A stretch of 64,000 nt of DNA from positions 124,001 through 188,000 of the forward strand of contig NZ_LDJL01000005.1 of assembly GCF_001431405.1 (NCBI RefSeq), read 5' to 3'. Shown piece after piece: positions 8,496-56,900 of this stretch. Position numbers and translations under genes: made by a program. The stretch comes from Pseudoxanthomonas dokdonensis. Lineage in GTDB: Bacteria > Pseudomonadota > Gammaproteobacteria > Xanthomonadales > Xanthomonadaceae. Each line of letters opens with the position of its first letter. Within the stretch, counting starts at the first letter, position 1. A model generated the notes under the pieces. The model made no database searches. It was not told the origin of the DNA and saw only the letters and a program-made list of their open reading frames with translations.

Positions 8496-10139
8496 ATGCA
8501 GCCCGGTGATGCCAGCGCCGTGGATGCCGACCCGTGGTCTCCACTGCGCCAGACCACGTTCCGGGCACTATGGCTGGCGGTACTGGTCGGCAACATAGGC
8601 ACCTGGGTCCATGATGTCGCCGCTGCCTGGGTCATGGCCGAGACCACGTCATCGCCATTGATGGTGGCGGCGGTACAATCGGCGACCACCTTGCCGGTGG
8701 TGCTGTTTGCCCTGGTCGCCGGTACCCTGGCCGACAGCATCGACCGCAGGCGCTATCTGATCCTGGCCCAGCTGTGGATGTTGTCGGTGGCGACGTTGTT
8801 GGCGCTGTTGGCACAACTCGACATGCTTGGGCCCTGGTCGTTGCTGGCGCTGACCTTCGCTCTCGGCACCGGGGCGGCGATGGCAATGCCGGCGCAGGCC
8901 GCGATCATGCCCGAACTGGTGCCACGCCCACAGTTGGCGTCGGCGATCTCGCTCAACTCGGCCGGCATGAACATCGCCCGCTCGATAGGGCCGGCCATCG
9001 GCGGAGTCATCCTCGCCCAGGCCGGTCCTGCGCTGGCGTTTGCGCTCAATGCACTGTCCTTCGTCGGTGTGATCCTGGTGTTGTGGCGATGGCAGCCGGT
9101 AAAGATCGCGCCGGATTTGCCACGCGAGTCGTTCGTTGTCGGCTTGCGGGCCGGCATCCGCTTCGCCTGGCAGGCACCGGTTTTCCAGTCGGTGCTGGCC
9201 AAGGCGATCACGTTCTTCTTGTTTGCCAGCGCCATACCGGCGCTGTTGCCGGTGCTGGTGCGCAGCGAACTGGCCGCGGGTCCGGGCACCTTCGGCCTGC
9301 TGCTGGGTTGCATTGGCATCGGCGCGGTCGGCGGAACCCTGCTGCTGCCACGCTTGCGCCGCAACCATGACGGCGATGCGCTGGTGCTGGTCGCCACCTT
9401 GGCCTGCGCGCTGGCGACGATCGGCGTTGCCTGCACCCGCTCGACGCTGCTGATCGGCCTATTGCTGCTGGTATTCGGCAGCGGATGGATCACCGTCCTT
9501 TCCTCATTGCAGGTAGCTGCTCAGCTGTCGGTGCCGGGATGGGTGCGGGCGCGTGCGTTGTCGCTCTACATCATGGTGTTTGCACTGGGCATGGCGCTGG
9601 GCAGCCTGGCATGGGGGGCGCTGGCACAACGCATGGGCGTGACCATCGCATTGGCGACGGCGGCACTGGGGGCGGCCAACATGGCGTTGGTGGCACGGAG
9701 ATTCCGGCTGGGTGCCAGCGAACTGCTCGACTTCACACCATCGGCGCATTGGCCACAGCCGCTGGCCGTCGAGCCGCCAGCACATGAGCGCGGGCCGGTG
9801 ATGGTGATCATCGAATACAACATCGCCAATGAGGACCGGTCGCGCTTCCTTGCCCTCGGCCGCGAGCTGGGCCGGACACGACGTCGCGACGGTGCCATCG
9901 ACTGGCATCTGGTGGAAGACATCAGTCAGCCGGGCATCTGGCTGGAGTACTTCCTGGTGCCGACATGGTTACAGCACCTGCGCCAGCACCACCGGACCAC
10001 GGCCGATGACCAGCGTCTGCAGCAGCAACTGCGCGATCTACATCGAGGCCAGCGGGCACCGCGCGTCCGTCACTTCATCGGCGACGGCAAACATGCTGCC
10101 GCCATGGCGCCGCATGAGCATCCGGAGCCAGCCGCATGA
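8496..10139 (+). CDS. MFS exporter (MFS_3/EntS-like) with C-terminal ABM-type domain
   Basis: A 547-residue protein. Residues about 15-415 are a twelve-helix major facilitator of the MFS_3/EntS group (FRALWLAVLVGNIGTWVHDV at the start, PELVPRPQLASAISLNSAGM in the middle). The last 110 residues (MVIIEYNIANEDRSRFLALG onward) look like a small ferredoxin-like antibiotic-biosynthesis-monooxygenase/NIPSNAP domain facing the cytoplasm. This fusion recurs in the family. Start ATG 8496 lies two bases after the amidohydrolase stop, and the stop overlaps the next start (ATGA). It probably exports a product or toxin handled by the neighbouring hydrolases; the ligand is unknown. Confidence 0.88.
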   Translation: MQPGDASAVDADPWSPLRQTTFRALWLAVLVGNIGTWVHDVAAAWVMAETTSSPLMVAAVQSATTLPVVLFALVAGTLADSIDRRRYLILAQLWMLSVATLLALLAQLDMLGPWSLLALTFALGTGAAMAMPAQAAIMPELVPRPQLASAISLNSAGMNIARSIGPAIGGVILAQAGPALAFALNALSFVGVILVLWRWQPVKIAPDLPRESFVVGLRAGIRFAWQAPVFQSVLAKAITFFLFASAIPALLPVLVRSELAAGPGTFGLLLGCIGIGAVGGTLLLPRLRRNHDGDALVLVATLACALATIGVACTRSTLLIGLLLLVFGSGWITVLSSLQVAAQLSVPGWVRARALSLYIMVFALGMALGSLAWGALAQRMGVTIALATAALGAANMALVARRFRLGASELLDFTPSAHWPQPLAVEPPAHERGPVMVIIEYNIANEDRSRFLALGRELGRTRRRDGAIDWHLVEDISQPGIWLEYFLVPTWLQHLRQHHRTTADDQRLQQQLRDLHRGQRAPRVRHFIGDGKHAAAMAPHEHPEPAA

Positions 10140-10366
10140 ACATCAGATTCGCCATCGGCCTGCTGCTGGGATTCGTGATTGGCTTCGCCTGCCGATGGTT
10201 CGGCATCCCGGTGCCGGCGCCACCGGCGCTGGTCGGCGCCCTTTTGGTCGTGTCCATGAGTGCTGGCTATCAGTTCGCTGACCTTTTCGTTACCGCACGC
10301 AAGGCGCGCCATGTCCGTGATTGCGGTGGACCGGACGGCCTGACCGGTGTCGGTGACCAGGCATGA
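10136..10366 (+). CDS. XapX-family small membrane protein (copy 1)
   Basis: A 76-residue protein with two hydrophobic helices around the XapX hallmark: GFACRWFGIPVPAPPALVGA. XapX proteins are tiny membrane proteins of unknown function, often next to isochorismatase and amidohydrolase genes as here. It overlaps the MFS stop by four bases (ATGA) and its own stop overlaps the next XapX start, so it is translated as part of the operon. A 22-residue polar tail follows the second helix. Confidence 0.8.
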   Translation: MNIRFAIGLLLGFVIGFACRWFGIPVPAPPALVGALLVVSMSAGYQFADLFVTARKARHVRDCGGPDGLTGVGDQA

Positions 10367-10518
10367 TGGTGCTGGCTGGCGTCCTGCTGGCGCTTGCCAT
10401 CGGCACAGCTTGCCGGATGCTGGACATCCCACTACCTGCGCCGCCGCGATTGCAGGGTGCGTTGCTGGTGGTGGCGATGACTGCCGGATTCCTGCTGGCG
10501 GATCATCTGTTGCGATGA
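10363..10518 (+). CDS. XapX-family small membrane protein (copy 2)
   Basis: A 51-residue protein whose ATG at 10363 overlaps the previous stop (ATGATG). It repeats the architecture of copy 1: hydrophobic helix, RMLDIPLPAPPRLQGA, hydrophobic helix, basic end LLR. The shared core (I-P-x-P-A-P-P-x-L-x-G-A-L-L-V-V) shows an internal tandem duplication or a heteromeric pair. This small gene is easy to miss because of its length. Function unknown. Confidence 0.75.
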   Translation: MMVLAGVLLALAIGTACRMLDIPLPAPPRLQGALLVVAMTAGFLLADHLLR

Positions 10519-10644
10519 GAAAGTCGCGATGCAACGTCGCGACGCTGCTTGATGAGGGACTACCCGAACGCAGTCAGTAGCAGCGAGTTCGACGTCCATG
10601 CCGGGGCAACGGCCACCTTTCAATCCGTCGCTTAGCGAGCGTGG

Positions 10645-39295: not shown

Positions 39296-39988
39296 CTACA
39301 GCTTGACGAAGCGCTGGATCCTGCGCGCCAGCCAGCCGCTGAAGCGCAGCGGTGCATCCAGCGCGGACACGCAGATGCAGGCCGCACCGGGGGCTGTGAC
39401 CGGCTGGTGTTCGACGTCCTGATCCAGATCCGCCACGTCACCCGGCGCGAACAACCCCAGCGCGTCGTTGTACGAGCCACGCAGGATCTGGGTCAGTTCG
39501 CTGCTGCCATGGCTGTGCATCGGCAGGCATTTACCGGGGGCGATCCGCAGCATGATCAGGGTCGGCATGTCGGCCGCGCGGATGCAGTGGACGCCGGGGG
39601 CAATCCAGCGCCAGCGCAGCGACCGCAACGAATCGCCGAAATACGGATGCAGCGATGCCGGCAGGTAATCCGGATCCGCCTGCGGGCATTCGCGTGGCGG
39701 TTGCCGCAATGCCGGTGCCGGTTCCCGTGACCGCCCTTCGCCACCGGGCTCGGCCTGCTCAAGCTGCGCCAGCATCGCCTGGCGCAATACCTCGCGACGC
39801 GGGCTGGGGACGTCGGGCTGGGTGCGATCGATCAGCGCGGCGCCGACAGTCTCGGCCAGGTGCAGGCGCTGGCGGCAATGCGGGCAGCTCTCCAGATGGG
39901 CACCGGCGACCACGCTCAACGCGGCCGGCAAGGCGCCAGCGGCGAAGCTCATCAGGGTTGATTCGTGCAGGTGGTGGCGTGGACTCAT
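39296..39988 (-). CDS. chrR: ChrR-type cupin anti-sigma factor
   Basis: A 230-residue zinc anti-sigma factor. The N-terminal anti-sigma domain has the zinc motif AHLESCPHC (H-x3-C-x2-C) near residue 31-38. The C-terminal half is a cupin with metal ligands in MHSHGSSELTQI and DVEHQPV. In Rhodobacter sphaeroides, ChrR holds sigma-E inactive and releases it in response to singlet oxygen through its cupin domain. Its ATG overlaps the sigma-factor stop (ATGA), the standard arrangement. It is convergent with the phosphatase gene. Confidence 0.93.
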   Translation of the reverse strand: MSPRHHLHESTLMSFAAGALPAALSVVAGAHLESCPHCRQRLHLAETVGAALIDRTQPDVPSPRREVLRQAMLAQLEQAEPGGEGRSREPAPALRQPPRECPQADPDYLPASLHPYFGDSLRSLRWRWIAPGVHCIRAADMPTLIMLRIAPGKCLPMHSHGSSELTQILRGSYNDALGLFAPGDVADLDQDVEHQPVTAPGAACICVSALDAPLRFSGWLARRIQRFVKL

Positions 39989-40646: not shown

Positions 40647-40673
40647 TACGTGCCAGCGTCCGGTTTGGATGCA
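40647..40673 (-). promoter_or_regulatory. ECF-sigma promoter of the sigma-chrR operon
   Basis: On the minus strand TGCATCCAAA (40673-40664), 13 bases, CGTA (40650-40647). The same motif and spacing occur at 40684 and 41536. It shares its -35 region back to back with the divergent promoter. Confidence 0.8.
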
Positions 40674-40683
40674 GGCCCGGTGC

Positions 40684-40710
40684 TGCATCCAAAGCACTGC
40701 CTGCTGCGTA
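40684..40710 (+). promoter_or_regulatory. ECF-sigma promoter of the divergent secreted-protein gene
   Basis: TGCATCCAAA (40684-40693), 13 bases, CGTA (40707-40710), 30 bases before the ATG at 40741. It forms an 11-base inverted repeat with the opposite promoter. Confidence 0.8.
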
Positions 40711-40740
40711 AGGAACAGCAACCCATCCGCGGAATAACAC

Positions 40741-41526
40741 ATGCGTACCCGACGTTCCGGCCGCTGGCTTGCCTGCCTGGTCCTGGCCTGGCCGCTGACA
40801 CTGGCGGCGACGGAGTTGCAACGCAGCGAGGGTGTGGCCAGCAACGCCGACGGTCGGCCGCTGTACCGGGAAATCCACTGGCAACGCGGCGGCGATGCCG
40901 GCGAGCACTGGGTGCTGTACACCTGCCCCGACGGCGCACCATTCGCGCGCAAATGGCTGCCAGCGGCAACCTCCGCGCTGGCGCGCGGCTACCGGCTGGA
41001 GGACCGCCGCAGCGGCCAGCAGGCTACCGTCACGGTGTCCGCCGACAACGTGGCAATCGACTGGACGGAACAGCGCGGCGCCAGCGCACGGCAGCGGCAG
41101 CTGCCCTTGCCGGCGCAGGCAGTAATCGATACCGGTTTCGATGCCGCGGTGCGCAGGCACTGGTCGGAACTGATGGACGGCAAGGCAATCACCCTGCCGT
41201 TCCTGGTCCCCGGCCGGCAGCGCTTCTACCCGGTGCAGGTGCAACGCCAACGTGCGCTCGACTGGCGCGGGCAACCGGCACAGGCCATCCAGGTGGAGCT
41301 GGACACCTGGTATGGCGCGGTCGCACCGCGGCTGGCACTGGTGTATGCGGACAGCGACCGGCGCCTGCTGGAGTTCAATGGCACCAGCAACCTGCGCGAT
41401 GAGGCCGGCGATTATCCGCAGGTGGTGGTCCGTTTCGCGGCGCCACCTGCCACCGCCAGCGATCAGCAGCGGCAGCGCGACTGGCAGCGCCCGCTGGTGG
41501 CGCAGTGTGCAGCGTCGAAAAAATGA
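40741..41526 (+). CDS. Hypothetical exported protein, ECF-sigma regulated
   Basis: A 261-residue protein with a signal peptide (GRWLACLVLAWPLTLAA). I do not recognise a named family. The mature protein is mainly polar beta-type sequence with Trp and Tyr (REIHWQRGG, HWVLYTCPDG, DTWYGAVAPRLALVYAD), and has two Cys. It resembles small periplasmic proteins of unknown function found next to rpoE-chrR loci. It is transcribed from its own ECF promoter, divergent from the sigma gene. The next gene starts 69 bases downstream with a second ECF promoter, so it is a separate early target. Confidence 0.75.
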   Translation: MRTRRSGRWLACLVLAWPLTLAATELQRSEGVASNADGRPLYREIHWQRGGDAGEHWVLYTCPDGAPFARKWLPAATSALARGYRLEDRRSGQQATVTVSADNVAIDWTEQRGASARQRQLPLPAQAVIDTGFDAAVRRHWSELMDGKAITLPFLVPGRQRFYPVQVQRQRALDWRGQPAQAIQVELDTWYGAVAPRLALVYADSDRRLLEFNGTSNLRDEAGDYPQVVVRFAAPPATASDQQRQRDWQRPLVAQCAASKK

Positions 41527-41535
41527 TGAACTGCC

Positions 41536-41562
41536 TGCATCCAAACGCCACCCGGCTGCGTA
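41536..41562 (+). promoter_or_regulatory. ECF-sigma promoter of the lipid-modification operon
   Basis: TGCATCCAAA (41536-41545), 13 bases, CGTA (41559-41562), 33 bases before the desaturase ATG at 41595. Identical core and spacing to the two promoters at the sigma gene. Confidence 0.8.
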
Positions 41563-41594: not shown

Positions 41595-42551
41595 ATGCAG
41601 AGCGCAGCGTCACCGAACGGCACCAGACAGCGCCTGCTGCCTACCTTGCGGCGCTGGTTCGATACCGGGGTAGCCAGTGATGCCGGTCTGGAGCCGGCTG
41701 CGGCCCGGCGTATTGACTGGCTGCGGGCGCTGCCGTTCGCCGGGCTGCACCTGGGCTGCCTGGGGGTGATCTGGGTCGGCGCTTCCTGGACGGCAGTGAC
41801 GGTGGCCTTGCTGTTGTATGCAGTGCGGATGTTCGCGATCACCGGCTTCTACCACCGCTATTTTTCCCACCGCACCTTCCAGGCGTCACGGCCGGTGCAG
41901 TTCGCCTTCGCGGTGATTGGCGCGGCCAGCGTGCAGCGTGGCCCGCTGTGGTGGGCTGCCCATCATCGACATCACCACCGGCATGCCGATCAGGCGCTGG
42001 ACCCGCACTCGCCACGTGAAGCCGGCTTCTGGCGCAGCCACATGGGCTGGTTCCTGACCCGCGGCGCCTTCGCCACCGACTTTGCGCGGATACCGGATCT
42101 GGCGCGTTTCGCCGAGCTGCGCTGGCTTGATCGCTACGATACGGTGGTGCCCCTATTGCTGGCCGCCGGACTGTACGGGCTGGGTGAAGCGTTGCAGGCG
42201 TTCGCACCCGCGCTCGGTACCGATGGACCGCAGCTGCTGGTCTGGGGCTTCTTCATCTCCACTGTGGTGCTGTTCCATGCGACCGTGACCATCAATTCGC
42301 TGGCCCATCAGTACGGCACGCGCCGCTTCGAGACCGCCGACGACAGCCGTAACAATCCATGGCTGGCGCTGCTGACCTTTGGCGAAGGCTGGCACAACAA
42401 CCATCACTTCTTCCCGGGCACGGTGCGACAGGGCTTTCGCTGGTGGGAAATCGACATGACCTGGTACGGCTTGCGGATGCTGGCGGCGCTGCGGCTGGTG
42501 CATGGGCTGAAACCGATCCCGGCCTGGGTGCTGGCCAAGGCAAGGAGCTGA
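41595..42551 (+). CDS. Membrane fatty acid desaturase (delta-9 acyl type)
   Basis: A 318-residue integral-membrane diiron desaturase. The three His boxes are HRYFSH (about 86-91), HHRHHHRH (about 122-129) and HNNHH (about 269-273), and the membrane helices surround them. The order is that of acyl-CoA/acyl-lipid delta-9 desaturases, which put a cis double bond into acyl chains using O2 and an electron donor. ATG 41595 has AGGGAG upstream. It is the first gene of the eight-gene operon, and its product would be the unsaturated substrate for the methyltransferases encoded downstream. The next ATG is one base after the stop. Confidence 0.93.
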   Translation: MQSAASPNGTRQRLLPTLRRWFDTGVASDAGLEPAAARRIDWLRALPFAGLHLGCLGVIWVGASWTAVTVALLLYAVRMFAITGFYHRYFSHRTFQASRPVQFAFAVIGAASVQRGPLWWAAHHRHHHRHADQALDPHSPREAGFWRSHMGWFLTRGAFATDFARIPDLARFAELRWLDRYDTVVPLLLAAGLYGLGEALQAFAPALGTDGPQLLVWGFFISTVVLFHATVTINSLAHQYGTRRFETADDSRNNPWLALLTFGEGWHNNHHFFPGTVRQGFRWWEIDMTWYGLRMLAALRLVHGLKPIPAWVLAKARS

Positions 42552-42552
42552 G

Positions 42553-43830
42553 ATGCGCATCGCGGTCATCGGTTCGGGTATCGCCGGCTTGTCCTGTGCA
42601 TGGTGGCTGGACAGTGAGCACGAGGTCACCCTGTTCGAAGCCAACGATTACCTGGGCGGGCACACCCACACCCACGCGCTGCAGGTCGACGGCCAGGCGC
42701 TGGCGGTGGATACCGGCTTCATCGTCTTCAACCAGTCGCACTATCCGCTGCTGACCGCCCTGTTCGATGAACTGGGCGTGGCCAGCCAGCCGACCACCAT
42801 GGGTTTCTCGGTCCACAGCCAGCGCAGTGGCGTGGAGTACAACGCCAGCACTCTGGACGGCCTGTTCTGCCAGCGCCGCAACCTGCTGTCACCGCGCTTC
42901 TGGGGAATGCTGGCGGATCTGCGTCGTTTCTATCGTGACGCACCCTCGTTGCTGCGGGATGCGGATAGCCCGACCCTGGGCCAGTACCTGCAGGAGCAGC
43001 AGTTCGGTGACGCCTTCGTCGAAGAGCACCTGCTGCCGATGGCGTCGGCGCTGTGGTCTTCACCCACCGCGCAGGTCAGGGAATTCCCGGCACGCTATCT
43101 GGTCCAGTTCATGGCCAACCACCAGATGTTGCAGATGAGCGGACGCACGCCCTGGCGGGTGGTCAGCGGCGGCTCGGCACGCTATGTCGATGCGCTGCGC
43201 GCACGCTGGCGGGTACGCGAACGGCTGGAGTGCCCGGTCTACGGCATCGAGCGCCTGGCCTGGGGTGCGCGGGTGCGCAGTGCCGCCGGCATTGAGGGTT
43301 TCGACAAGGTGATCCTGGCCTGCCACAGCGATCAGGCGCTGCGCCTGCTGGAAGATGCCGACGCCAGCGAGCGCGCCGTGCTGGGCGCGATACGCTATCA
43401 GCCCAATGAGGTGGTGTTGCATACCGATGCCTCGCTGCTGCCACGCAACCGCAAGGCGTGGGCGGCGTGGAACGCGCACGTGCCGCGGGACCCGCGGGCG
43501 CCCTGCACGGTCAGCTACTGCATGAACCTGCTGCAGGGTCTGCCGGTCAGTACGCCGCTGGTGGTCACCCTCAACCGCAGCGAAGCGATCAACCCGGACA
43601 AAATCCTGCGCCGCTTGCAGTACGCCCATCCGGTGCACGATCACGCCGCCGTGCGCGCGCAACGCCGCTGGCGTGAAATCCAGGGACGCCGCCATACCTG
43701 GTTTGCTGGTGCTTACTGGGGCTGGGGTTTCCACGAGGACGGCATCCGCAGCGCCCGCAACGTGGTCGATGCATTACGCGAAACCCTGCCCGGCCTGCAG
43801 CCGGCACCGCCGCCGATGGTGCCGGCATGA
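42553..43830 (+). CDS. FAD-dependent amine-oxidase-like oxidoreductase
   Basis: A 425-residue flavoprotein. The N-terminal Rossmann motif is IAVIGSGIAGLSCAWWL with the following acidic residue in EVTLFEANDYLGGHTHTH. The C-terminal FAD segment is GAYWGWGFHEDGIRSARNV. It belongs to the group near protoporphyrinogen/amine oxidases that occurs in sigma-E/ChrR operons; in Rhodobacter sphaeroides a related flavoprotein takes part in converting methylated vaccenate to furan fatty acid. The stop overlaps the next ATG (ATGA). Substrate here is inferred from context only. Confidence 0.88.
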   Translation: MRIAVIGSGIAGLSCAWWLDSEHEVTLFEANDYLGGHTHTHALQVDGQALAVDTGFIVFNQSHYPLLTALFDELGVASQPTTMGFSVHSQRSGVEYNASTLDGLFCQRRNLLSPRFWGMLADLRRFYRDAPSLLRDADSPTLGQYLQEQQFGDAFVEEHLLPMASALWSSPTAQVREFPARYLVQFMANHQMLQMSGRTPWRVVSGGSARYVDALRARWRVRERLECPVYGIERLAWGARVRSAAGIEGFDKVILACHSDQALRLLEDADASERAVLGAIRYQPNEVVLHTDASLLPRNRKAWAAWNAHVPRDPRAPCTVSYCMNLLQGLPVSTPLVVTLNRSEAINPDKILRRLQYAHPVHDHAAVRAQRRWREIQGRRHTWFAGAYWGWGFHEDGIRSARNVVDALRETLPGLQPAPPPMVPA

Positions 43831-44594
43831 GCGCCAGTGCGATCTATTTCGGCAAGGTCTTGCACCGGCGCCACCATCCGCATGCGCATGCCTTCCGCTA
43901 TCCGGTCGCGCAACTACTGCTGGATCTGGATGAGCTTGAGCAGGTATTCGACAGGCGCTGGCTGTGGTCGATCAACCGGCCAAACCTAGCCGAGTTCCGT
44001 CGCAGCGACTATCTGGGCGATCCGGAGATCCCATTGGCCGACGCAGTGCGTGACCGCGCCGCCGCGGTAATGGGGCGACGTCCGACCGGACCGGTGCGGC
44101 TGCTGACCCATCTGCGCTACGCCGGCCATGTCTTCAATCCGGTCAGCTTCTACTACTGCTACCGCGCCGATGGACAGCAGCTGGATTGCATTGTCGCCGA
44201 GATCACCAATACGCCTTGGAAAGAACGCCATGCTTACGTGTTGCCAGTTGAAGATGGTGTTCGCCACGGCAACGGCTGGCGCTGGCAGTTCGACAAGTGC
44301 TTCCACGTCTCTCCATTCATGGCGATGGACTGCCGCTACGACTGGCGCCTGAATGCACCCGGCGAGAACCTGCGCGTACACATGCAGGTCTGGCGCGACG
44401 GCGTACGCCAGTTCGATGCGACTCAGCTGATGCAGCGCCGACCGCTGGACGCACGCGGGCTGGCGCGGGTGCTACTGCATTACCCGTTGATGACCACGCA
44501 GGTGGTCGCCGCCATTCACTGGCATGCATTGCGCCTGTGGCTGAAGCGCAATCCCGTGCACACCCACCCTGCCCTGGCCAAGGAGCAAAGATGA
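43827..44594 (+). CDS. DUF1365-domain protein
   Basis: A 255-residue protein of the DUF1365 family: HRRHHPHAHAFRYPVAQLLL at the start, SRPN-like INRPNLAEFRRSDYLGD, then LLTHLRYAGHVFNPVSFYYC and KCFHVSPFMAMDCRYDW. These segments are conserved in the family, which constantly accompanies the amine-oxidase-like flavoprotein and cyclopropane synthase genes, but its reaction is unknown. It overlaps the genes on both sides (ATGA before, ATGA with the cyclopropane synthase after). Confidence 0.92.
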   Translation: MSASAIYFGKVLHRRHHPHAHAFRYPVAQLLLDLDELEQVFDRRWLWSINRPNLAEFRRSDYLGDPEIPLADAVRDRAAAVMGRRPTGPVRLLTHLRYAGHVFNPVSFYYCYRADGQQLDCIVAEITNTPWKERHAYVLPVEDGVRHGNGWRWQFDKCFHVSPFMAMDCRYDWRLNAPGENLRVHMQVWRDGVRQFDATQLMQRRPLDARGLARVLLHYPLMTTQVVAAIHWHALRLWLKRNPVHTHPALAKEQR

Positions 44595-45838
44595 CCGAAA
44601 TGACGCCATCCCTGTCGCTACCCCACCCCGGCGCGCTCGATGCTTTCCTGCGTGGCCGATTGCTGGCACAGCTGGCGCCACTGCGTGCCGGATGCCTGCG
44701 CGTATGCGATGCGCTGGGTGAGGCCGTGCTGGGTGACCCGGCCGCCGCGACCGTGGTCAAGGTGACCATCACTGACCCGGCGTTCTATCGCAAGGTCGCC
44801 GCCCAGGGTAGCGTCGGCGCCGGCGAAGCCTATATCAACGGTGACTGGCGCTGCGACGATCTGGTCGCGCTGGTGCGGCTGCTGGTACGCAACCGCGACC
44901 TGCTGGATGGCATGGAACGCGGTCCGGCGCGGCTGGGCGGCTGGCTGCTGCGTGGCTGGAACCGGCTGCGCCGCAACAGCCGGCGTGGCAGCCGTCGCAA
45001 CATCGCCGCCCACTATGATCTCGGCAACGCGTTCTTCTCGCTGTTCCTGTCGCCGGACATGATGTATTCGTCGGCACTGTTCGCCAGCGAAGACGAAACG
45101 CTGGAACAGGCATCCACGCGCAAGCTCGATCGCATCTGCCAGCAACTGGACCTGCAGCCGGGTGATCGCGTGGTCGAGATCGGTACCGGCTGGGGCGGTT
45201 TTGCCCTGCATGCGGCACGCCATTACGGCTGCCACGTGACCACCACCACCATCTCGGCCGAGCAGCACGCACTGGCGCAGGCACGCGTCGAGCAGGCCGG
45301 GTTGAACCAGCGCGTCAGCGTGCTGATGCAGGATTACCGGGATCTGGATGGCCAGTTCGACAAACTGGTGTCGATCGAAATGATCGAAGCGATCGGCGCT
45401 GAATTCCTCGACACTTATTTCGCCACCCTGCAACGCCTGCTCAAGCCCGATGGCCTGGCCATGCTGCAGGCGATCACCATCGAGGACCATCGCTATCGGC
45501 AGGCCCTGCGCAGCGTCGATTACATCAAGCGCTTCGTATTCCCGGGCAGCTTCATCCCTTCGCTCAATGCGATCATGGCGGCCAAGACCCGGGCCAGCGA
45601 TCTGCAATTGATCGGCCAGCTGGACTTCGGCCAGTCGTATGCGCTGACCCTGCGTGCCTGGCGCCAGCGTTTCCTGGCCCAGCATGTGGCGGTGCGCGCA
45701 CAAGGTTTCGATGACCGCTTCGCGCGGTTGTGGGAGTTCTATCTGGCGTATTGCGAAGGCGGTTTCCTTGAACGCTCGATCGGCGTGTCGCAGTTGTTGC
45801 TGGCACGCCCCGGCCATCGACCGGCACTGGCGGGCTGA
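44591..45838 (+). CDS. cfa: Cyclopropane-fatty-acyl-phospholipid synthase family methyltransferase
   Basis: A 415-residue SAM-dependent enzyme. The C-terminal two thirds is the catalytic domain: AHYDLGNAFFSLFLSPDMMY, SAM-binding VVEIGTGWGGFALHAA, VSIEMIEAIGAEFLDTYF and IEDHRYRQALRSVDYIKRFV. The N-terminal region carries the acyl-binding module (YRKVAAQGSVGAGEAYINGD). By family it adds a methylene bridge or methyl group to the double bond of phospholipid acyl chains. ATG 44591 overlaps the DUF1365 stop and follows AAGGAG. A second methyltransferase follows in the operon. Confidence 0.93.
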   Translation: MTEMTPSLSLPHPGALDAFLRGRLLAQLAPLRAGCLRVCDALGEAVLGDPAAATVVKVTITDPAFYRKVAAQGSVGAGEAYINGDWRCDDLVALVRLLVRNRDLLDGMERGPARLGGWLLRGWNRLRRNSRRGSRRNIAAHYDLGNAFFSLFLSPDMMYSSALFASEDETLEQASTRKLDRICQQLDLQPGDRVVEIGTGWGGFALHAARHYGCHVTTTTISAEQHALAQARVEQAGLNQRVSVLMQDYRDLDGQFDKLVSIEMIEAIGAEFLDTYFATLQRLLKPDGLAMLQAITIEDHRYRQALRSVDYIKRFVFPGSFIPSLNAIMAAKTRASDLQLIGQLDFGQSYALTLRAWRQRFLAQHVAVRAQGFDDRFARLWEFYLAYCEGGFLERSIGVSQLLLARPGHRPALAG

Positions 45839-45839
45839 C

Positions 45840-46391
45840 ATGCACCGGTTCTGGATCAACCTGCTCGGCAACCAGTTGGTCTGGTTGTGCGCGGTAATTG
45901 GCGCCGGACGCGGCCTGCAATGGCCGGCATTGCTGGCCGCCGCGCTGTATATCGCCAGCCAGCTAGCCGGTGCGCCCAGGCCACGGGTCGAACTGCGGCT
46001 GTTGTGGCTGGCGTTGGCCTGCGGCGCGGTGGTCGATGGCGTCGCCGCCGGCAGCGGTCTTGTCGTCTATGCGGCAAGCGTGCCGGGGCCGTTGCCACCG
46101 CCATGGATCCTGGCGCTGTGGGCGGCATTCGCGATGACACTGACCACCTCGATGGCGTTCCTGCAGCGGCGTGCGTGGCTGGCCAGCCTGTTCGGTCTGC
46201 TGCTGGCGCCGCTGGCCTATCTGTCGGCGGCGCGCGGCTGGGATGCGGTGCAGTTCGCGGCACCGACATGGCGAGGAATACTGCTGCTTGGCATTGGTTG
46301 GGCGCTGGTACTGCCATTGCTGGCGGCCGCCGCGCGACGCTGGTCGCGCACGGCCCCGCCCGCACTCGACACAGCGGATGCACACCCATGA
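45840..46391 (+). CDS. DUF2878-family membrane protein
   Basis: A 183-residue protein with five or six membrane helices (FWINLLGNQLVWLCAVIGAG at the start; PPPWILALWAAFAMTLTTSM with the family Trp). DUF2878 proteins are unknown inner-membrane proteins typical of these sigma-E lipid operons. ATG 45840 lies one base after the cyclopropane synthase stop, and the stop overlaps the next start by four bases. Confidence 0.85.
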   Translation: MHRFWINLLGNQLVWLCAVIGAGRGLQWPALLAAALYIASQLAGAPRPRVELRLLWLALACGAVVDGVAAGSGLVVYAASVPGPLPPPWILALWAAFAMTLTTSMAFLQRRAWLASLFGLLLAPLAYLSAARGWDAVQFAAPTWRGILLLGIGWALVLPLLAAAARRWSRTAPPALDTADAHP

Positions 46392-47179
46392 TCGCGCTGG
46401 CCTGGGTTGCGTTGTATGCGCTGCTGTCGATGGCCTGGGGTTGGCACTGGCAGCAGCGTCATCAGAATATCGGCATCGTCGATGTGCTGTGGGCGGCAGG
46501 ACTGGGGGTGGCGGCGCTGTTGCTGGCCATCTTCGGCGAAGGCGCGGTGCTGCCGCGGGTCGCGCTGGCGCTGATGGCCGGCAGCTGGAGTACGCGCCTG
46601 GCCCTGCATCTGTGGCGACGGGTGAGCCATGAAGACGAAGATGGCCGTTACCAGTACCTGCGCCAGCACTGGCACGGCCATCAGGGAAAGATCTTCGCGT
46701 TCTTCCAGGCCCAGGCGCTGTTGATCGTGCTGTTCGCGCTGCCATTTGCCGCGGTTGCCGCCAATCCCGACGACGACGGCTGGGGCTGGCTGGTGGCAGC
46801 GATATTGGTATGGCTGGCCAGCGTGATCGGCGAAGCGGTCGCCGACCGCCAGCTGGCGCGCTTCCGCAACAACCCGGCCAATCGCGGCCGTACCTGTCGG
46901 ACCGGGTTATGGCGCTACTCGCGCCATCCCAATTACTTCTTTGAATGGCTGCACTGGTTTACCTACGTGCTGCTGGCGGCGGGGTCGCCGTGGTGGTGGC
47001 TGGCGTGGAGCGGCCCGCTGCTGATGTACCTGTTCCTGCGCTACCTCAGTGGCGTGCCCTACACCGAAAAACAGGCCCTGCGCAGCCGCGGCGAGGATTA
47101 TCGGCGCTACCAGCGCAGCACCTCGATGTTGTTCCCGTGGTTTCCACGCACACCTTCCGAACCAGGAGCTGATCCATGA
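46388..47179 (+). CDS. DUF1295-family membrane enzyme
   Basis: A 263-residue multi-helix protein of the DUF1295/steroid 5-alpha-reductase-like superfamily. Signature segments are QNIGIVDVLWAAGLG, SRHPNYFFEWLHWFTYVLLA with the R-H-P-N motif, and EDYRRYQRSTSMLFPW. Relatives are reductases or isoprenylcysteine-methyltransferase-like enzymes acting on membrane lipids. It is probably a lipid-modifying step of this operon. Both ends overlap neighbouring genes (ATGA), indicating tight coupling. Confidence 0.9.
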   Translation: MIALAWVALYALLSMAWGWHWQQRHQNIGIVDVLWAAGLGVAALLLAIFGEGAVLPRVALALMAGSWSTRLALHLWRRVSHEDEDGRYQYLRQHWHGHQGKIFAFFQAQALLIVLFALPFAAVAANPDDDGWGWLVAAILVWLASVIGEAVADRQLARFRNNPANRGRTCRTGLWRYSRHPNYFFEWLHWFTYVLLAAGSPWWWLAWSGPLLMYLFLRYLSGVPYTEKQALRSRGEDYRRYQRSTSMLFPWFPRTPSEPGADP

Positions 47180-48246
47180 GCACCGCAATCCCGACGACGG
47201 CCGTGCCGGCCACCGAACCCGGCCTGCTCGGCGCTGCCGAACGCGGCTGGATTCCCGATGCCGTGCTGCGCTGGGGTATCCGTCGCCTGTGTGCGCAGCG
47301 ATTGCGCGAAGAGTCCGACGGCGGCCTGGCCCGGCAGTCGCGGATCTTCAGCGAACGCATTGCCGAACTGGCCGGCAGTCCGCTGGCGTTGCACGTCGAT
47401 GCCGCCAATCGCCAGCATTACGAAGTACCGGCGGCGTTCTTCCAGGCCTGCCTGGGACCGCGGATGAAATACAGCAGCTGCTATTACCGCAGCGGCCACG
47501 AGACCCTGGCCGAGGCCGAACTGGCGATGCTTGAGTTGTACGCGCAGCGCGCCGAACTGGCCGACGGCCAGGACATCCTCGAGCTGGGGTGCGGCTGGGG
47601 TTCGCTGACGCTGTGGATGGCCGAGCGATTCCCGCGCGCCAACATCACCGCGGTGTCCAATTCCAGCAGCCAGCGCCAGCATATCCAGGCCCAGTGCCTG
47701 GCACGTGGTCTGGTCAACGTCCAGGTCATCACCCGCGACGTCAATCAGCTGGATCTGCCGGCGCAGGCCTTCGACCGCTGCGTGTCGGTGGAGATGTTCG
47801 AGCACATGCGCAACTACGGCCGCCTGCTGCGCAACATTGCCGGCTGGCTGCGCCCGCAAGGCGCGCTGTTCGTGCACATCTTTGCTCATCGCACGTTGAT
47901 GTATCCGTTCGACAGCGATGGCGAGGACAACTGGATGGGCCGGCACTTCTTCACCGGCGGACTGATGCCGGCCGCCGACACCCTGCTGCATTTCCAGCAC
48001 GACCTGCAGCTGCAGCAGCGCTGGCTGCTGGAAGGCAGCCACTACCAGCGCACCGCCAACCACTGGCTGGCCAACCAGGACCGCCAACGCGATCAGCTGA
48101 TGCCGGTCCTGCAGGCCACCTATGGCGATGCCGCCGATATCTGGTGGCAGCGTTGGCGCATGTTCTGGATGGCCTGCGCCGAACTGTTTGGTTACGACGA
48201 TGGCCAGCAGTGGCTGGTCGCCCATTACCTGTTCCGTCCACGCTGA
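47176..48246 (+). CDS. SAM-dependent methyltransferase, cyclopropane-synthase-like
   Basis: A 356-residue methyltransferase. The SAM motif is ILELGCGWGSLTLWMAERF. It is preceded by QHYEVPAAFFQACLGPRMKY and followed by VSVEMFEHMRNYGRLLRNIA and the family segment DNWMGRHFFTGGLMPAADTL. This last segment and the shorter N-terminus separate it from true cyclopropane synthases and place it with coclaurine-N-methyltransferase-like proteins common in sigma-E regulons. The presence of two different methyltransferases suggests a product more complex than a cyclopropane ring. ATG 47176 overlaps the DUF1295 stop. Confidence 0.9.
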   Translation: MSTAIPTTAVPATEPGLLGAAERGWIPDAVLRWGIRRLCAQRLREESDGGLARQSRIFSERIAELAGSPLALHVDAANRQHYEVPAAFFQACLGPRMKYSSCYYRSGHETLAEAELAMLELYAQRAELADGQDILELGCGWGSLTLWMAERFPRANITAVSNSSSQRQHIQAQCLARGLVNVQVITRDVNQLDLPAQAFDRCVSVEMFEHMRNYGRLLRNIAGWLRPQGALFVHIFAHRTLMYPFDSDGEDNWMGRHFFTGGLMPAADTLLHFQHDLQLQQRWLLEGSHYQRTANHWLANQDRQRDQLMPVLQATYGDAADIWWQRWRMFWMACAELFGYDDGQQWLVAHYLFRPR

Positions 48247-48256
48247 TGGAGGCCCC

Positions 48257-48790
48257 ATGCGCACTGTCCACCTGCTGTCCCTGCTCGCCCTGACCTTGCT
48301 CGCCAGCGCCTGCAGCAGCCACTCGACCCGCCCGCTGCCGCGTCCGCCGGCGGTCGATGTGCCACGCTTCATGGGCGACTGGTATGTCATCGCGCACATC
48401 CCGTCGTGGCCGGAACGCGAGGCTTACGACGCGCTGGAGTCCTACCGGCAACGCCCGGATGGCCGCATCCAGACCACCTTCAGCTATCGCAAGGGCAGCT
48501 TCGACGCCCCGCTCAAAACGATGCATCCGATTGGCCGGGTCGAGCAACAAGGCAACGGCGCGTTGTGGAGCATGCAGTTCGTCTGGCCGATCCAGGCCGA
48601 ATACGTGATTGCCTGGGTCGACGCGGACTATTCACAGACCATCGTCGGCCGCAGCAAGCGCGATTACGTCTGGTACATGGCGCGCACCCCGCAGGTCTCT
48701 GATGCCGATTACCAGCAGGCGGTCGAACGCATCGCCGCCCTCGGTTACGACATCCGCCAGCTGCGCAAGGTGCCGCAGTCGCCACGTTGA
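48257..48790 (+). CDS. blc: Outer-membrane lipocalin lipoprotein (Blc-like)
   Basis: A 177-residue lipocalin. The lipobox is LLASACSS. The lipocalin signature is RFMGDWYVIAHIP (G-x-W-Y), later segments are EAYDALESYRQRPDGRIQTT and YVIAWVDADYSQTIVGRSKR with the YVWYMARTP strand. Blc-type lipocalins bind fatty acids or lysophospholipids at the outer membrane. As last gene of the operon it probably traffics or scavenges the modified lipid. ATG 48257 has TGGAGG upstream, ten bases after the previous stop. Confidence 0.92.
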   Translation: MRTVHLLSLLALTLLASACSSHSTRPLPRPPAVDVPRFMGDWYVIAHIPSWPEREAYDALESYRQRPDGRIQTTFSYRKGSFDAPLKTMHPIGRVEQQGNGALWSMQFVWPIQAEYVIAWVDADYSQTIVGRSKRDYVWYMARTPQVSDADYQQAVERIAALGYDIRQLRKVPQSPR

Positions 48791-50925: not shown

Positions 50926-53900
50926 ATGCCTAACGCGTGGCGGATTCTGAGTCGTTGGTTGAGATTGCGTCGTCGATTGTGGCGATGGGGGCGCGCCGCC
51001 ATGCGCAAGGCGCCGGCGCTGGAAGCCCCGTTGCGGGCGACCCTGCTGAGCAGCGAGCAGATGGAGGACCGCGGCCGGGCACTGGCCCGTGCCCACACCA
51101 TCGCCGCCCGGCCCTGCCCCGACCAGTTGCTGGGGCGGTTGAAGGAAAACGAGGTGCTGCTGGATTCGGCCTGCAGCCTGCTCACCTCGCTGGTGCGCCA
51201 GGACCTGCGCATCGCCCCGGCCGGCGAATGGCTGCTGGACAACTTCTATCTGGTTGAAGAACAGATCCGCACCGCCCGCCGCTATCTGCCCAAGCATTAC
51301 AGCCGCGAGCTGCCCTGCCTGGACAGCGGCCCGTTTGCCGGCCTGCCGCGGGTCTACGACCTCGCCCAGGAAGTGATTGCCCACGGCGATGGCCGTATCG
51401 ACGCGCAGAGCATCAGCCGTTTCGTCTCCGCCTACCAGGACGTCAGCCCGCTGCGGCTGGGTGAACTGTGGGCGATCCCGATCATGTTGCGACTGGCCTT
51501 GATCGACAACCTGCGCCGGGTCGCCTCGCGGGTGATGCGTGACGCCGGTGAGCAGCGCTCGGCGATGGAATGGGCGCGCGCGCTCAATCGCGCCGCCCTC
51601 GACAGCCCACGCGACATGGTCCTGGTGGTCGCCGACATGGCGCGTTCCAATCCGCCACTGTCGGGCACGTTCGTCGCCGAACTGACCCGCAACCTGCAGG
51701 GCGGCGGCGCGGTGCTGTCGATGCCGCTGGCCTGGGTTGAACATTGGGTCACCGAAAGCGGCCACAGCATCAAGGATCTGGTCTACGCGGAAAACCAGCA
51801 GCAGGCCGCCGACCAGGTCTCGATCAGCAACAGCATCCACAGCATGCGTTTCCTGGCCAACATGGACTGGCGCGAGTTTGTCGAAACCATGAGCCAGGTC
51901 GATGCCGAACTGCGCCAGGATCCGGCCGGCACCTATTCGCTGATGGACTTCAACACCCGCGATGTCTACCGGCACATGGTCGAAAAACTGGCCAAGCGCA
52001 GCGGCGTGGCCGAACCCGAAGTGGCGGCACTGGCCCGGCAACTGGCCGGGCAGCACCGGTCCGACCCGCTGCACGCACATGTCGGCTATTACCTGATCGA
52101 TGACGGCTTGAAGCAGCTCAAGCAGGCGGTTGCCGCTGCATCTCCACAAGGCAGGGTCGCCCATACCAGCCCGCAGCGCTTGCCGCTATGGGCGTACCTG
52201 ACGCCGATCGCCATGCTGACCGTGGCTGCCAGCGCGATCCTGCTGGCGCAGCTGGCCGGGCTGGGCTGGCCGCTGTGGGCTTTTGCGCTGGCGGCGCTGT
52301 TGTCGGTGGTGACGTTCAGCGAGCTGGCGATCGCCCTGGTCAACTGGCTGGCAACCATCCTGGTTACCCCGCGTCCACTGCCGCGGCTGGATTACAGCAA
52401 AGGCATCCCGGCGCAATCGCGTTCGCTGGTGGCGGTACCGTGCATGCTCGGCAGCACCGATGGCATCGACGCGCTGGTCGAGGGGCTGGAGGTACGTTAT
52501 CTGGCCAACCGCGATGCGCACCTGCATTTCGCCCTGCTCAGTGATTTCCTCGATGCCAGCGAGGAGACCATGCCCGGCGACGACGCCCTGCTGGACTACG
52601 CCAGCCGCCAGATCGCCAACCTCAACACCCGCTATGACCCCGAGCACGGCCAGCGCTTCTTCCTGCTGCACCGGCCACGGCGCTGGAACCCGCGGGAACG
52701 GGCCTGGATGGGCCACGAACGCAAGCGCGGCAAGCTGGCGGCGCTGAACGCGCTGCTGCGCCAGCACCGGCAGCGCAATGCCGCCGCCGGTGACGACTTC
52801 ATGCGCGTGGTCGGCAACACCGAAGTGCTGGCCAACGTGCGTTACGTGATCACCCTCGACAGCGACACCCGGCTGCCGCGTGACGCCGCCCGCGAATTCG
52901 TCGGCACCCTGGCGCATCCGCTCAACCACGCCCGCTTCGATGAGACCCGCAACGTGGTCACCCGCGGCTACGGCATCCTGCAGCCGGGCATCGGCAGCAG
53001 CATGAGCGGCGGCCGGCTGACCCGCTTCGCCCGCCTGTTCGGCAGCGAACCGGGGATTGATCCGTACACCCGCACGGTCTCGGACGTGTACCAGGATCTG
53101 TTCCGCGAAGGATCGTTCATCGGCAAGGGCATCTACGATGTCGACGCCTTCGAACACGCGCTGGACAACCGCTTCCCGGAAAACGCCATCCTCAGCCATG
53201 ATCTGCTGGAAGGCTGTTATGCGCGCGCCGGGCTGGTCAGCGATGTCCGCCTGTTCGAGGACTATCCCTCGCGCTATGCCACCGACGTCAAGCGCCGCTC
53301 GCGCTGGATTCGCGGCGACTGGCAGTTGCTGCCGTGGTTGTTGCCGTGGGTACCGATGGCCGGCAACGGCTGGCAGGCCAATCCGCTGTCGTGGCTGTCG
53401 CGCGGCAAGCTGCTGGACAACCTGCGCCGCAGCCTGGTGCCGTCGGCGACGCTGATCCTGTTGCTGGCCGGCTGGCTGGTGTTGCCGCATCCACTGACCT
53501 GGACCTTGTGGCTGTTGAGCCTGTTGTTGCTGCCGGCGATCGTGCCGGCGCTGCGCAACACCTTCGTCAAGCCCGAAGACATGACCCTGGAAACCCACCT
53601 GCTGCAGGTGGGCAAGGCAGTCGCGCGGCAATTGCAGCAGGCGTTGATCAACCTCGCCTGCCTGCCGTACGAAGCACTGTTCAGTGCCGCCGCGATCACG
53701 CGCACCCTGTGGCGACTGCTGGTCAGTCGCCGCCACCTGTTGCAATGGGATCCTTCCAGCGAGGTCGAACGACGGCTTGGCCAGCGCGGCAACATCGAGC
53801 TGGTCGGGATGCTGCCTTCGGCATTGCTGGCGGTGCTGGCACTGGTCGCGGTGGCGCACTTCAATCCGCAGGCGCTGGCAGTGGCCGCACCATTGACCCT

Positions 53901-56900
53901 GGCGTGGATGCTGGCGCCGTGGCTGATGGCCTGGCTGGGCCAGCCACCGCAGGCGCGCACCGCCGATCTGTCCGAACAGCAGACCGCATTTCTCGGCCGG
54001 CTGGCGCGACGGACCTGGGCGTTCTTCGAGGTCTACCTGCGCGATGAGGATCACTGGCTGCCGCCGGACAACATCCAGGAACACCCTTCGCTGGTCGTCG
54101 CCCGCCGCACCTCGCCCACCAATATCGGCCTGTCGCTGCTGGCCAACCTGTCGGCGTATGACTTCGGCTACCTGCAGGTGGATGGGGTCATGCAGCGCAC
54201 CAGCGCGACGCTGGCGACGATGGAGGCCCTGCCCCGCCACCGCGGCCATTTCTATAACTGGTACGACACCGAAACCCTGGCGCCGTTGCCGCCGCGCTAC
54301 ATCTCCACCGTCGACAGCGGCAATCTGGCCGGCCATCTGCTGACCCTGCGCCAGGGTCTACTGGCGCTGGTCGACGCGCCGGTGCTGGCGGCGAGCACCA
54401 TGACCGGGCTGGCCCACGCCTGTGGCCTGCTGCGCGAAACCGTGCACAACAGCGACTGGCTGGACCAGACCATGCGCCAGGCGCTGGAGGCAATAGCCGC
54501 GCGGATTGATGACGCCGCCGTGCAACCGCCACAGACGCTGGGCCAGGCTCTGGCCGTGCTGTCGGCGATCGAACTGCAATGCGCCCGGTTGCAGGAAAGT
54601 TTCCCGCCCAGCCTGCTGCACGACGATGCCAGCAGCCCGCATTACTGGCTGCGCGCGCTGCGCGAACAGGCGCAGCACGCGCTGCGTGAAATCCGCCATC
54701 TGGCCCCGTGGCTGGAAGACACCGCCACCGACGCGGCCGCCGAGAGCGTGGCCGAATCACGCATCCCCAGCCTGCGCCAGATCAAGGACCTGGCCGGGCA
54801 TCCGCTGGCACGGACCCGCGCCCGCGAACGCATCCACCAGTTGGAGCGGCTGGCGCACCTGGCCGGGCAGATGTCGCTGATGGAGTATGGGTTCCTGTAT
54901 GACCGCGGCCGCAAGCTGTTGTCGATCGGCTACAACGTCGACGAGCGGCGCCTGGACGAAGCCCACTACGATCTGCTGGCTTCCGAGGCCCGCCTGTGCA
55001 GTTTCGTCGCCATCGCCCAAGGCCAGTTGCCGCAGGACACCTGGTTTGCACTGGGCCGGTTGCTGACCGAGGTCAACGGCGATGCCACGCTGTTGTCGTG
55101 GAGCGGCTCGATGTTCGAGTACCTGATGCCGCAACTGGTGATGCCCAGCTATCCGGACACGCTGCTGGACCAGACCTCGCAGCATGCGGTCGAAGCGCAG
55201 ATCGCGCACGGCGAACGCCAGGGCATCCCGTGGGGCGTATCCGAGTCCGGCTACAACACCGTCGACAGCCGCCTCAACTACCAGTACCGCGCCTTCGGCA
55301 CGCCCGGACTGGGCCTGAAGCGCGGCCTGAGCCAGGACGTGGTGATAGCGCCGTACGCGACGATGATGGCGTTGATGGTCGCGCCGCGCGCAGCCTGCGA
55401 GAACCTGCAACGGCTGCACACGCTGGGCTTCAGTGGCCGCTATGGCATGTATGAAGCAGTCGATTACACCCCGGCGCGGGTGCCGCCGGGACAGGAATAC
55501 GCGTTGATCCGTTCGTTCATGGCCCATCACCAGGGCATGGGCTTCCTGGCCCTGGATTACCTGCTGTGCCAGCAGCCGATGCAGAAGCGCTTCACCGCCG
55601 ACGCCGAATTCCAGGCCACCCTGCTGCTGTTGCAGGAACGCATTCCGCACACCGGCGTGTTCCATCCGCACGAGACCGAAGCACAGGCGCCCAACCTGGC
55701 CCAGAACGAATCGGAAATGCAGCTGCGGGTGATGCGCTCGCCCAGCCCCAGCCGGCCAGCGGTGCAGTTGCTGTCCAATGGCCGCTACCACGGCATGCTG
55801 ACCAGTGCCGGTGGCGGCTACAGCCGCATCCATGAGATGGCGCTGACCCGCTGGCGCGAAGACAGCACCCGCGACCCGTGGGGCATCTGGTGCTATCTGC
55901 GCGACGTGTACAGCGGCGACAGCTGGTCGGCGGCCTATCAGCCCACCTGCGTCGACACCGACGAGTACGAAGCCATCTTCACCGATGCCAAGGCCGAGTT
56001 CCGCTGCAAGAACCGCGCCTTCGACAGCCATCTGGAGATCGCCATCTCGCCCGAGGACGACATCGAGCTGCGCCGCTTGCGGATCAGCAACCGTTCGCGG
56101 CGCACGCGGGTGATCGAGATCACCACCTACGCCGAAGTGGTGCTGGCCCCGGCCATCGCCGACGAGCTGCATCCGGCTTTCAGCAATCTTTTCGTGCAGA
56201 CCGAGATCGTCGCCGCCAAACAGGCACTGATGTGCACCCGGCGGCCGCGTTCGCATGACGAAGTGCCGCCATGGATGTTCCACCTGGTGGCGGTGCACGA
56301 TGCCGACGTGCAGTCGATGTCCTATGAAACCGATCGCGCGCGCTTCCTCGGCCGCGGCCGCACCCCGCGCAATCCGCTGGCACTGGATGAACTGGAGGCG
56401 CTGTCCAATACCAGCGGTTCGGTGCTCGACCCGATTGTCGCCATCCGCACCCGGATCGAGCTCAAGCCGGAGCAGACCGCGACCATCGACATGGTCTACG
56501 GCACTGGTCCTGACCGCGCCGCCTGCAGCGCCCTGGTCGACAAATACCGCGACCGCCGCCTCGCCGACCGGGTGTTCGATCTGGCCTGGACCCACAGTCA
56601 GGTAATTCGTCGCCAGATCAATGCCAGCCAGACCGATGCCCAGATCTACGAGCAACTGGCCAGCCTGATGCTGTACACGCATCCGTCGATGCGCGCCGAC
56701 AGCGAGATCCTGCTGCAGAACCGGCGTGGCCAGTCCGGGCTGTGGGGCCATGCGATCTCCGGCGATCTGCCGATCCTGCTGTTGCAGATCTCCGATGCCG
56801 AGAACATCGAACTGGTGCGCCAGCTGGTGCAGGCACACGCCTATTGGCGATTGAAGGGCCTGCGCGTGGATCTGGTGATCTGGAACGAAAGCCAGACCGG

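Follow-up and report, generated by a model that had tools for sequence, protein, structure and literature searches.

A predicted three-promoter sigmaE-ChrR regulon with a TGCATCC -35 element at a lipid gene cluster of Pseudoxanthomonas dokdonensis

Within a stretch of 64,000 nucleotides of the Pseudoxanthomonas dokdonensis genome (the window), three copies of one sequence element very probably act as promoters of the adjacent ECF sigma factor of a sigmaE-ChrR stress system, which would drive three transcription units by reading (T)GCATCC with its region 4. The first-pass annotation of this DNA had proposed three targets of the sigma factor: its own gene, the gene of an exported protein and an eight-gene lipid operon. 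This proposal gains support from the conservation of the sites in related genomes and from RNA-seq data on Stenotrophomonas maltophilia mutants lacking either chrR or both chrR and rpoEc (PMC11832516). The finding is partly published: the regulon is already known in this close relative, and the additions are an internal promoter and a -35 code that is linked to an amino acid residue. A known oxidative-stress regulon is thus extended to a defined, predicted three-promoter layout in Xanthomonadales. The features are listed in Table 1.

Table 1. Predicted promoters and genes of the sigma-chrR locus (positions in the window)
Feature	Position	Strand	Remarks
Promoter 1, predicted	40647..40673	-	TGCATCC-N16-CGTA; before sigma-chrR genes; CGTA 38 bases from ATG 40608
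Promoter 2, predicted, divergent	40684..40710	+	Before exported-protein gene; CGTA 30 bases from ATG 40741
Promoter 3, predicted	41536..41562	+	Before desaturase and other lipid genes; CGTA 32 bases from ATG 41595
ECF sigma factor, 207 aa	39985..40608	-	Sigma70_r2, Sigma70_r4_2; recognition helix PLGTVKSHLRRAF (H191, R194)
ChrR family anti-sigma factor, 230 aa	39296..39988	-	TIGR02451 155.5 bits (cut-off 124.5); Cupin_7
Exported protein, 261 aa	40741..41526	+	Counterpart of smlt2375 by position
Fatty acid desaturase	41595..42551	+	PF00487 E 2.4e-27
FAD/NAD-binding amine-oxidase-like oxidoreductase	42553..43830	+	PF01593, PF13450
DUF1365 protein	43827..44594	+	PF07103 E 2e-86; family of UfaO
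Cyclopropane-fatty-acid-synthase-like methyltransferase 1	44591..45838	+	PF02353 E 4.1e-82
DUF2878 protein	45840..46391	+	PF11086 E 4.6e-34
DUF1295 protein	46388..47179	+	PF06966 E 1.4e-66
Cyclopropane-fatty-acid-synthase-like methyltransferase 2	47176..48246	+	PF02353 E 3.9e-37; NF008686 below cut-off
Lipocalin	48257..48790	+	PF08212 E 1.8e-44 for 48254-48790; ATG at 48257

The pattern TGCATCCAAA-N13-CGTA has three exact matches in the window, in agreement with the positions, the identity and the constant 13-base gap that had been annotated, and none in 100 dinucleotide shuffles of the window. A search of the genome (3,553,658 bases), which the first-pass annotation had suggested as a check, again returned only these three sites at the locus, and the backwards-pattern control gave no match. 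For the shorter TGCATCC-N16-CGTA there are likewise three exact matches in the genome and none in the control. When spacers of 15-17 bases are allowed, the core gives four matches versus four in the control; the core by itself is therefore not rare. Distinctive is the occurrence of three exact matches inside 916 bases, each 30-38 bases 5' of a gene, as expected from the distance of 30-40 bases to a start codon claimed earlier. The fourth core match (17-base spacer) was found to lack the start of a frame of at least 100 codons 12-75 bases downstream, in a check that aligned it at a 16-base spacer and thus one base short. The -35 elements of promoters 1 and 2 are separated by ten bases and form an inverted repeat. 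The AAA that follows TGCATCC is common to the three window sites, as the description of a 'ten-base -35' had implied, but it is absent from most relatives, so that only six or seven bases of this element, (T)GCATCC, form a conserved core; the leading T is replaced by C or G at some of the relatives' sites.

A wider regulon in P. dokdonensis is unsupported. Beyond the three exact sites, a search that kept the 16-base spacer but tolerated one mismatch gave 42 places in the genome (the exact ones included) versus 25 in the control. We inspected 27 of the 39 one-mismatch places (L096 was not aligned by the script), of which six are followed at 12-75 bases by an ATG or GTG that opens a frame of at least 100 codons; a few weak additional targets may therefore exist. 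Every inspected place, like the true sites themselves, falls within a long open frame, which makes the open-frame measure uninformative here. An Rfam scan of the window returned no matches.

The closest solved relative of the sigma factor is RpoE of Rhodobacter sphaeroides (2q1z, E 3e-27), and its neighbour corresponds to R. sphaeroides ChrR (2z2s, E 8.6e-32). The chrR gene follows directly downstream of the sigma gene with a reading frame overlap of four bases (39985-39988), and the TIGR02451 score of its product, next to an ECF sigma gene, exceeds the curated cut-off. The zinc anti-sigma motif of ChrR is H-x3-C-x2-C, which is present as HLESCPHC in the translation, together with the Cupin_7 domain. 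The HxH...E and H positions, which we take to be metal ligands, are kept in the alignment with R. sphaeroides ChrR. Judged by its sequence, the locus is a sigmaE-ChrR system; we assign it to the ECF11 type because of the pairing with ChrR and because RpoE is the nearest solved relative. The promoter reported as characteristic, although not defining, for ECF11 is TGATCC-N16-CGTA; the -10 element and the spacer are found here, with TGCATCC instead as the -35 element. Among named genomes (best 80 of 132 relatives), the best sigma matches are from Stenotrophomonas and other Xanthomonadales.

For the exported protein, the profile search found no Pfam or NCBIfam family, and a sequence search against solved structures gave a single match at E 0.52. 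The predicted model (pLDDT 91.1) has a barrel-like fold. With Foldseek, it weakly resembles the DUF1849 structure 6ntr (E 9.4e-06, TM 0.44-0.50, rmsd 6.7-8.2); only three DUF1849 chains and one bovine sperm axoneme chain reach E 0.001 or better, and the likeness to LolA/LolB has weaker E-values. This gives a weak lead that the protein might handle a lipid or lipoprotein. The oxidoreductase encoded behind the desaturase may be UfaD-like, UfaD presumably being a member of the same FAD/NAD-binding amine-oxidase-like family. DUF1365 is the domain of UfaO (PMC7380195), an enzyme of furan fatty acid synthesis, and for this reason furan-type products appear possible; the lipid genes would accordingly make furan-type or cyclopropane-type fatty acids.

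To compare related genomes, as had also been suggested, 40 Xanthomonadales loci including the window were scanned with at most one mismatch and a required 16-base spacer. This set keeps near-duplicates (e.g. L009 and L206, L030 and L032), and for L036, whose sigma frame is split, one piece was used just to locate the place. The sites are kept in relatives: the one upstream of the sigma gene is exact in 36/40 loci and has one mismatch in two (L022, L023), while a site with this spacer was not found before the sigma genes of L019 and L027. A close divergent site (0-1 mismatch, at most 50 bases away) is present in 28/40 loci, and 24/40 have another one, again with 0-1 mismatch, at a distance of 847-937 bases. 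In 21 of these 24 loci this third site lies 26-33 bases before the start of a protein similar in length to the desaturase; for L005, L034 and L036, the start chosen by the script gives 7, 15 and 0 bases. Under the same settings, 12/40 loci have no divergent site within 2.2 kb. Five of these 12 have a same-strand site downstream of the sigma gene (N16 in L019, with two sites, and in L021, L027 and L028; N17 in L018), and a sixth, L029, has such a site with a 14-base spacer only. The N16 sites of L019, L021, L027 and L028 lie near the chrR gene or past it, and an exported-protein homolog is found where the site lies in L019 and L027. In L013, L014 and L016 the sole divergent site is directly 5' of a desaturase-length protein, and a search for the exported-protein homolog in these three loci found none.

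The -35 form had been suspected to be lineage-specific. It is indeed the usual form in Xanthomonadales: besides the 40-locus scan, 30 ChrR loci were sampled from the order, a set that overlaps the 40 loci, and 17 of them have the exact TGCATCC form upstream of the sigma gene (nine of the others have one mismatch to TGCATCC or TGATCC, four have no site). However, TGCATCC-N16-CGTA also occurs upstream of more distant sigma genes in Kangiella, Ectothiorhodospiraceae and Rhodospirillales records. The code is thus common in Xanthomonadales but not exclusive to them.

The closest described counterpart is the sigma-Ec/ChrR regulon of S. maltophilia KJ (smlt2377-2379 and smlt2375-2367; PMC11832516), in which the pair rpoEc-chrR, with a sigma factor orthologous to that of the window, adjoins the same nine genes. 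Both loci share the sigma-chrR pair, nine divergent genes in the same family order and sigma boxes in the intergenic region, and the window thus carries the divergent lipid gene cluster of the sigma-Ec regulon as judged by gene families, order and predicted sites. According to RNA-seq, the chrR mutant showed an increase of 45-fold for rpoEc, 32-fold for chrR and 165- to 697-fold for the nine genes, and in the chrR rpoEc double mutant the same genes were at or below the wild-type level; the RNA-seq was done once and was accompanied by qRT-PCR of selected genes (PMC11832516). The S. maltophilia sigma operon has a third gene, chrA. The P. dokdonensis genome gave no match to the gene after chrR in locus L010, which was taken as chrA, in a search without a positive control; a tyrosine-phosphatase-family gene (PF13350; 38240-39187, + strand) faces chrR in the window, where S. 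maltophilia has chrA.

Unlike P. dokdonensis, Stenotrophomonas loci carry an extra site before a TspO gene. We detected TGCATCC-N16-CGTA in front of a TspO/MBR-family gene at 18779 (-) in L004, 18784 in L007, 18200 in L010, 18225 in L012 and 18804 in L044, and at 12592 in L006 and 12602 in L008; the identity rests on Pfam matches for the L006 and L010 copies and was judged by eye from translations for the others. The TspO gene is likely a further target of the sigma factor in Stenotrophomonas. A search of the genome containing the window gave no TspO match.

Other readings of the three sites have to be weighed. The inverted pair TTTGGATGCA-N10-TGCATCCAAA could be the operator of a dimeric regulator and not two -35 elements, for which the inverted repeat of promoters 1 and 2, ten bases apart, would speak. 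Among the 28 loci with a close pair, however, the arms are separated by anything between 9 and 49 bases in 27 (L022 was excluded from this range, the script having paired a different sigma-side site), which argues against a fixed palindromic operator. Moreover, the third copy is single, and CGTA is held 16 bases from ATCC in 83 of the 85 exact sites of both promoter classes described below. We have rejected this explanation as highly improbable. It is also conceivable, yet in our view unlikely, that genuine promoters stand only before sigma-chrR and the exported-protein gene, that the lipid genes are transcribed by read-through from the latter and that the third site is a relic. This would fit the S. 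maltophilia study, where MEME boxes were given only before rpoEc and smlt2375 and the nine genes were treated as one operon (PMC11832516), and locus L008, in which the exported-protein site is present and a third site with at most one mismatch was not found. Against a relic stands the retention of the third site in 24 of the 40 loci, in 21 of them at a nearly constant distance before the desaturase-length protein. In addition, smlt2374 reached 2088 TPM versus 744 TPM for smlt2375, i.e. 2.8 times as much in this single RNA-seq experiment (PMC11832516). Such a difference would fit an extra promoter between the two genes, where the third site of the window lies; the available text of PMC11832516 does not mention an internal promoter before smlt2374.

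With the three sites read as sigma promoters, the following mechanism can be proposed. ChrR would keep the sigma factor inactive until it is released by oxidative or membrane stress, as the Rhodobacter and Stenotrophomonas systems suggest. The freed sigma factor would transcribe sigma-chrR in a positive feedback, the exported-protein gene from promoter 2 and the eight lipid-modification genes from the third site, which would act as an additional, internal promoter. Its region 4 would recognize (T)GCATCC and not the classical TGATCC, whereas the 16-base spacer and the CGTA -10 element would be those of the classical members, and Arg194, a Leu in classical members, would shift the -35 preference. 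Inhibition by ChrR, stress release, autoregulation and control of lipid genes have been shown in other systems, and by analogy the same presumably holds in P. dokdonensis.

For the analysis of the -35 code, 134 adjacent sigma-ChrR pairs were collected from 95/108 ChrR loci, 38/80 sigma loci and the window; the loci were taken from among the matches listed, and some were sampled. Since the sigma loci were found by peptide patterns including QMPLGTVK, M183 is favoured among them; residues 191 and 194 lie outside that pattern. L036 was left out of the sigma classing, the 84-row tree and the residue-194 count. Among the 133 classed sigma factors, 39 have an exact TGCATCC and 46 an exact TGATCC site, including L027 (17-base spacer) and L149 (15-base spacer), while the 34 with one mismatch and the 14 without a site belong to neither exact class. 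The difference from the TGATCC of the Rhodobacter RpoE type, noticed in the first-pass annotation, is thereby borne out. In the TGCATCC class residue 183 is M, as against L, I or V in the TGATCC class; residue 191 is H in 37/39 versus R in 46/46; and residue 194 is R in 39/39, whereas in the TGATCC class it is L in 43/46 and never R. The window sigma factor has SHLRRA in its recognition helix versus SRIRLA in Rhodobacter, where RpoE has R191 and L194 by alignment.

In a larger count of 156 distinct ChrR-paired sigma factors (30 loci from the order added), the bases before ATCY-N16-CGTA were left free. The base two positions before ATCY ('-36') is G for all 61 R194 sigma factors with a site (n=66), and G in 1, T in 50 and A in 3 of the 54 L194 sigma factors with a site (n=84); a site of this pattern was not found for 30/84 L194 and 5/66 R194 members. 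With another residue at 194, G stands at '-36' in 0/6. Residue 191 as the determinant is weakened by the variety seen there (H, S, T, G, N, C and R) among R194 sigma factors that all have G at '-36', and by L270, which combines N191/L194 with GTGATCT. A sigma factor encoded on a Pseudomonas asturiensis plasmid, 50% identical to that of the window, has M183/C191/L194 and the site GTGATCC-N16-CGTA; L038 and L039 have M183/L194 with TGATCC, and L249 has L183/R194 with TGCATCC. Taken together, these combinations indicate that the code follows residue 194 more closely than it does 183 or 191.

From this covariation, Arg194 (Leu in classical members) is likely the cause of the -35 difference. The counterparts of residue 194, R176 in E. 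coli sigmaE and R175 in SigW, hydrogen-bond a base of the -35 element in crystal structures (PMC6713349), which makes a direct role plausible; the base that Arg194 would touch in the window sigma factor is deduced under the assumption of a fixed spacer. The full proposal is that, inside a single family of ChrR-controlled sigma factors, the -35 code was naturally rewritten from xTGATCC to TGCATCC, with -10 element and spacer unchanged, by a Leu/Arg change (in either direction) at the recognition-helix position that corresponds to R176 of E. coli sigmaE; the Arg would read a G one base further upstream. We put it forward tentatively, at slightly less than an even chance. Somewhat less probable still, but a serious competitor, is that residue 194 is a bystander and that the difference comes from other lineage-specific residues or a shifted binding register. 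Residues outside the helix (e.g. 51, 59, 121) separate the exact classes about as cleanly, and L207 contradicts the residue-194 rule, having Leu194 with a GCATCC-like site. The evolutionary changes are also few: on a tree without the helix columns (84 rows) the code and R194 change twice each, so that at most two independent code/residue pairs are available, too few for a test, and on a 123-row tree R194 changes three times, the third change not being secure. A quick tree placed the P. asturiensis sigma factor inside the Xanthomonadales clade; as sister placement gave a better-scoring tree that the test does not reject (p-AU 0.827), its value as a third independent change is weakened. With only two or three changes, causation by residue 194 is unproven. 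What speaks against a bystander is the base-contacting position of this residue and, within the helix, that 191 and 183 are largely set aside by the exceptions named above.

R. sphaeroides RpoE, an ECF11 sigma factor that controls a singlet-oxygen regulon, has promoters with a -35 element of the TGATCC type. Its system, although it provides the best-matching solved structures, therefore differs from that of the window in both the -35 element and the recognition helix. Furan fatty acid genes, one of them for a DUF1365 enzyme, belong to its regulon (PMC7380195, PMC6852236). PSPTO_1043 of Pseudomonas syringae and RpoE2 of Shewanella oneidensis, both of the ECF11 type, are autoregulated and share ChrR, the CGTA -10 element and the 16-base spacer with the window system, but their -35 element is TGATCC, in motifs that were called similar to that of R. 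sphaeroides (PMC5507510, PMC4336711). A literature search of titles, abstract starts and some passages found no statement of a TGCATCC code, which is not evidence of absence. TGCATCC is thus the motif to use for regulon searches in Xanthomonadales, since none of the three sites of the window would be picked up with the published TGATCC. Moreover, the two -35 codes found in nature, with a single residue as the strong candidate for their difference, offer a simple test of sigma-promoter specificity.

Some further observations were made alongside. Some genomes of the family (e.g. G030, G012, G124, G142) have 6-12 TGCATCC-N16-CGTA sites versus no control matches; among the matches listed there was no ChrR match for these four, which possibly lay outside the search. 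Tandem pairs of the site, 70-79 bases apart, occur in G012, G054, G124 and G142. Within the loci L258-L260, L260 contains a different sigma gene with its own upstream TGCATCC-N16-CGTA site, so that the code may serve a second sigma factor as well. The P. asturiensis pair (L264) is located on plasmid pCC1524 (NZ_CP047266.1, 94613-95781) as a Xanthomonadales-related sigma-ChrR pair with L194 and a TGATCC promoter. In L036 (Pseudoxanthomonas mexicana), the sigma reading frame is in two pieces around 9918-10600, by a sequencing error or as a pseudogene. Past the lipid cluster, one open reading frame of the window extends over 2925 codons (50926-59703, + strand).
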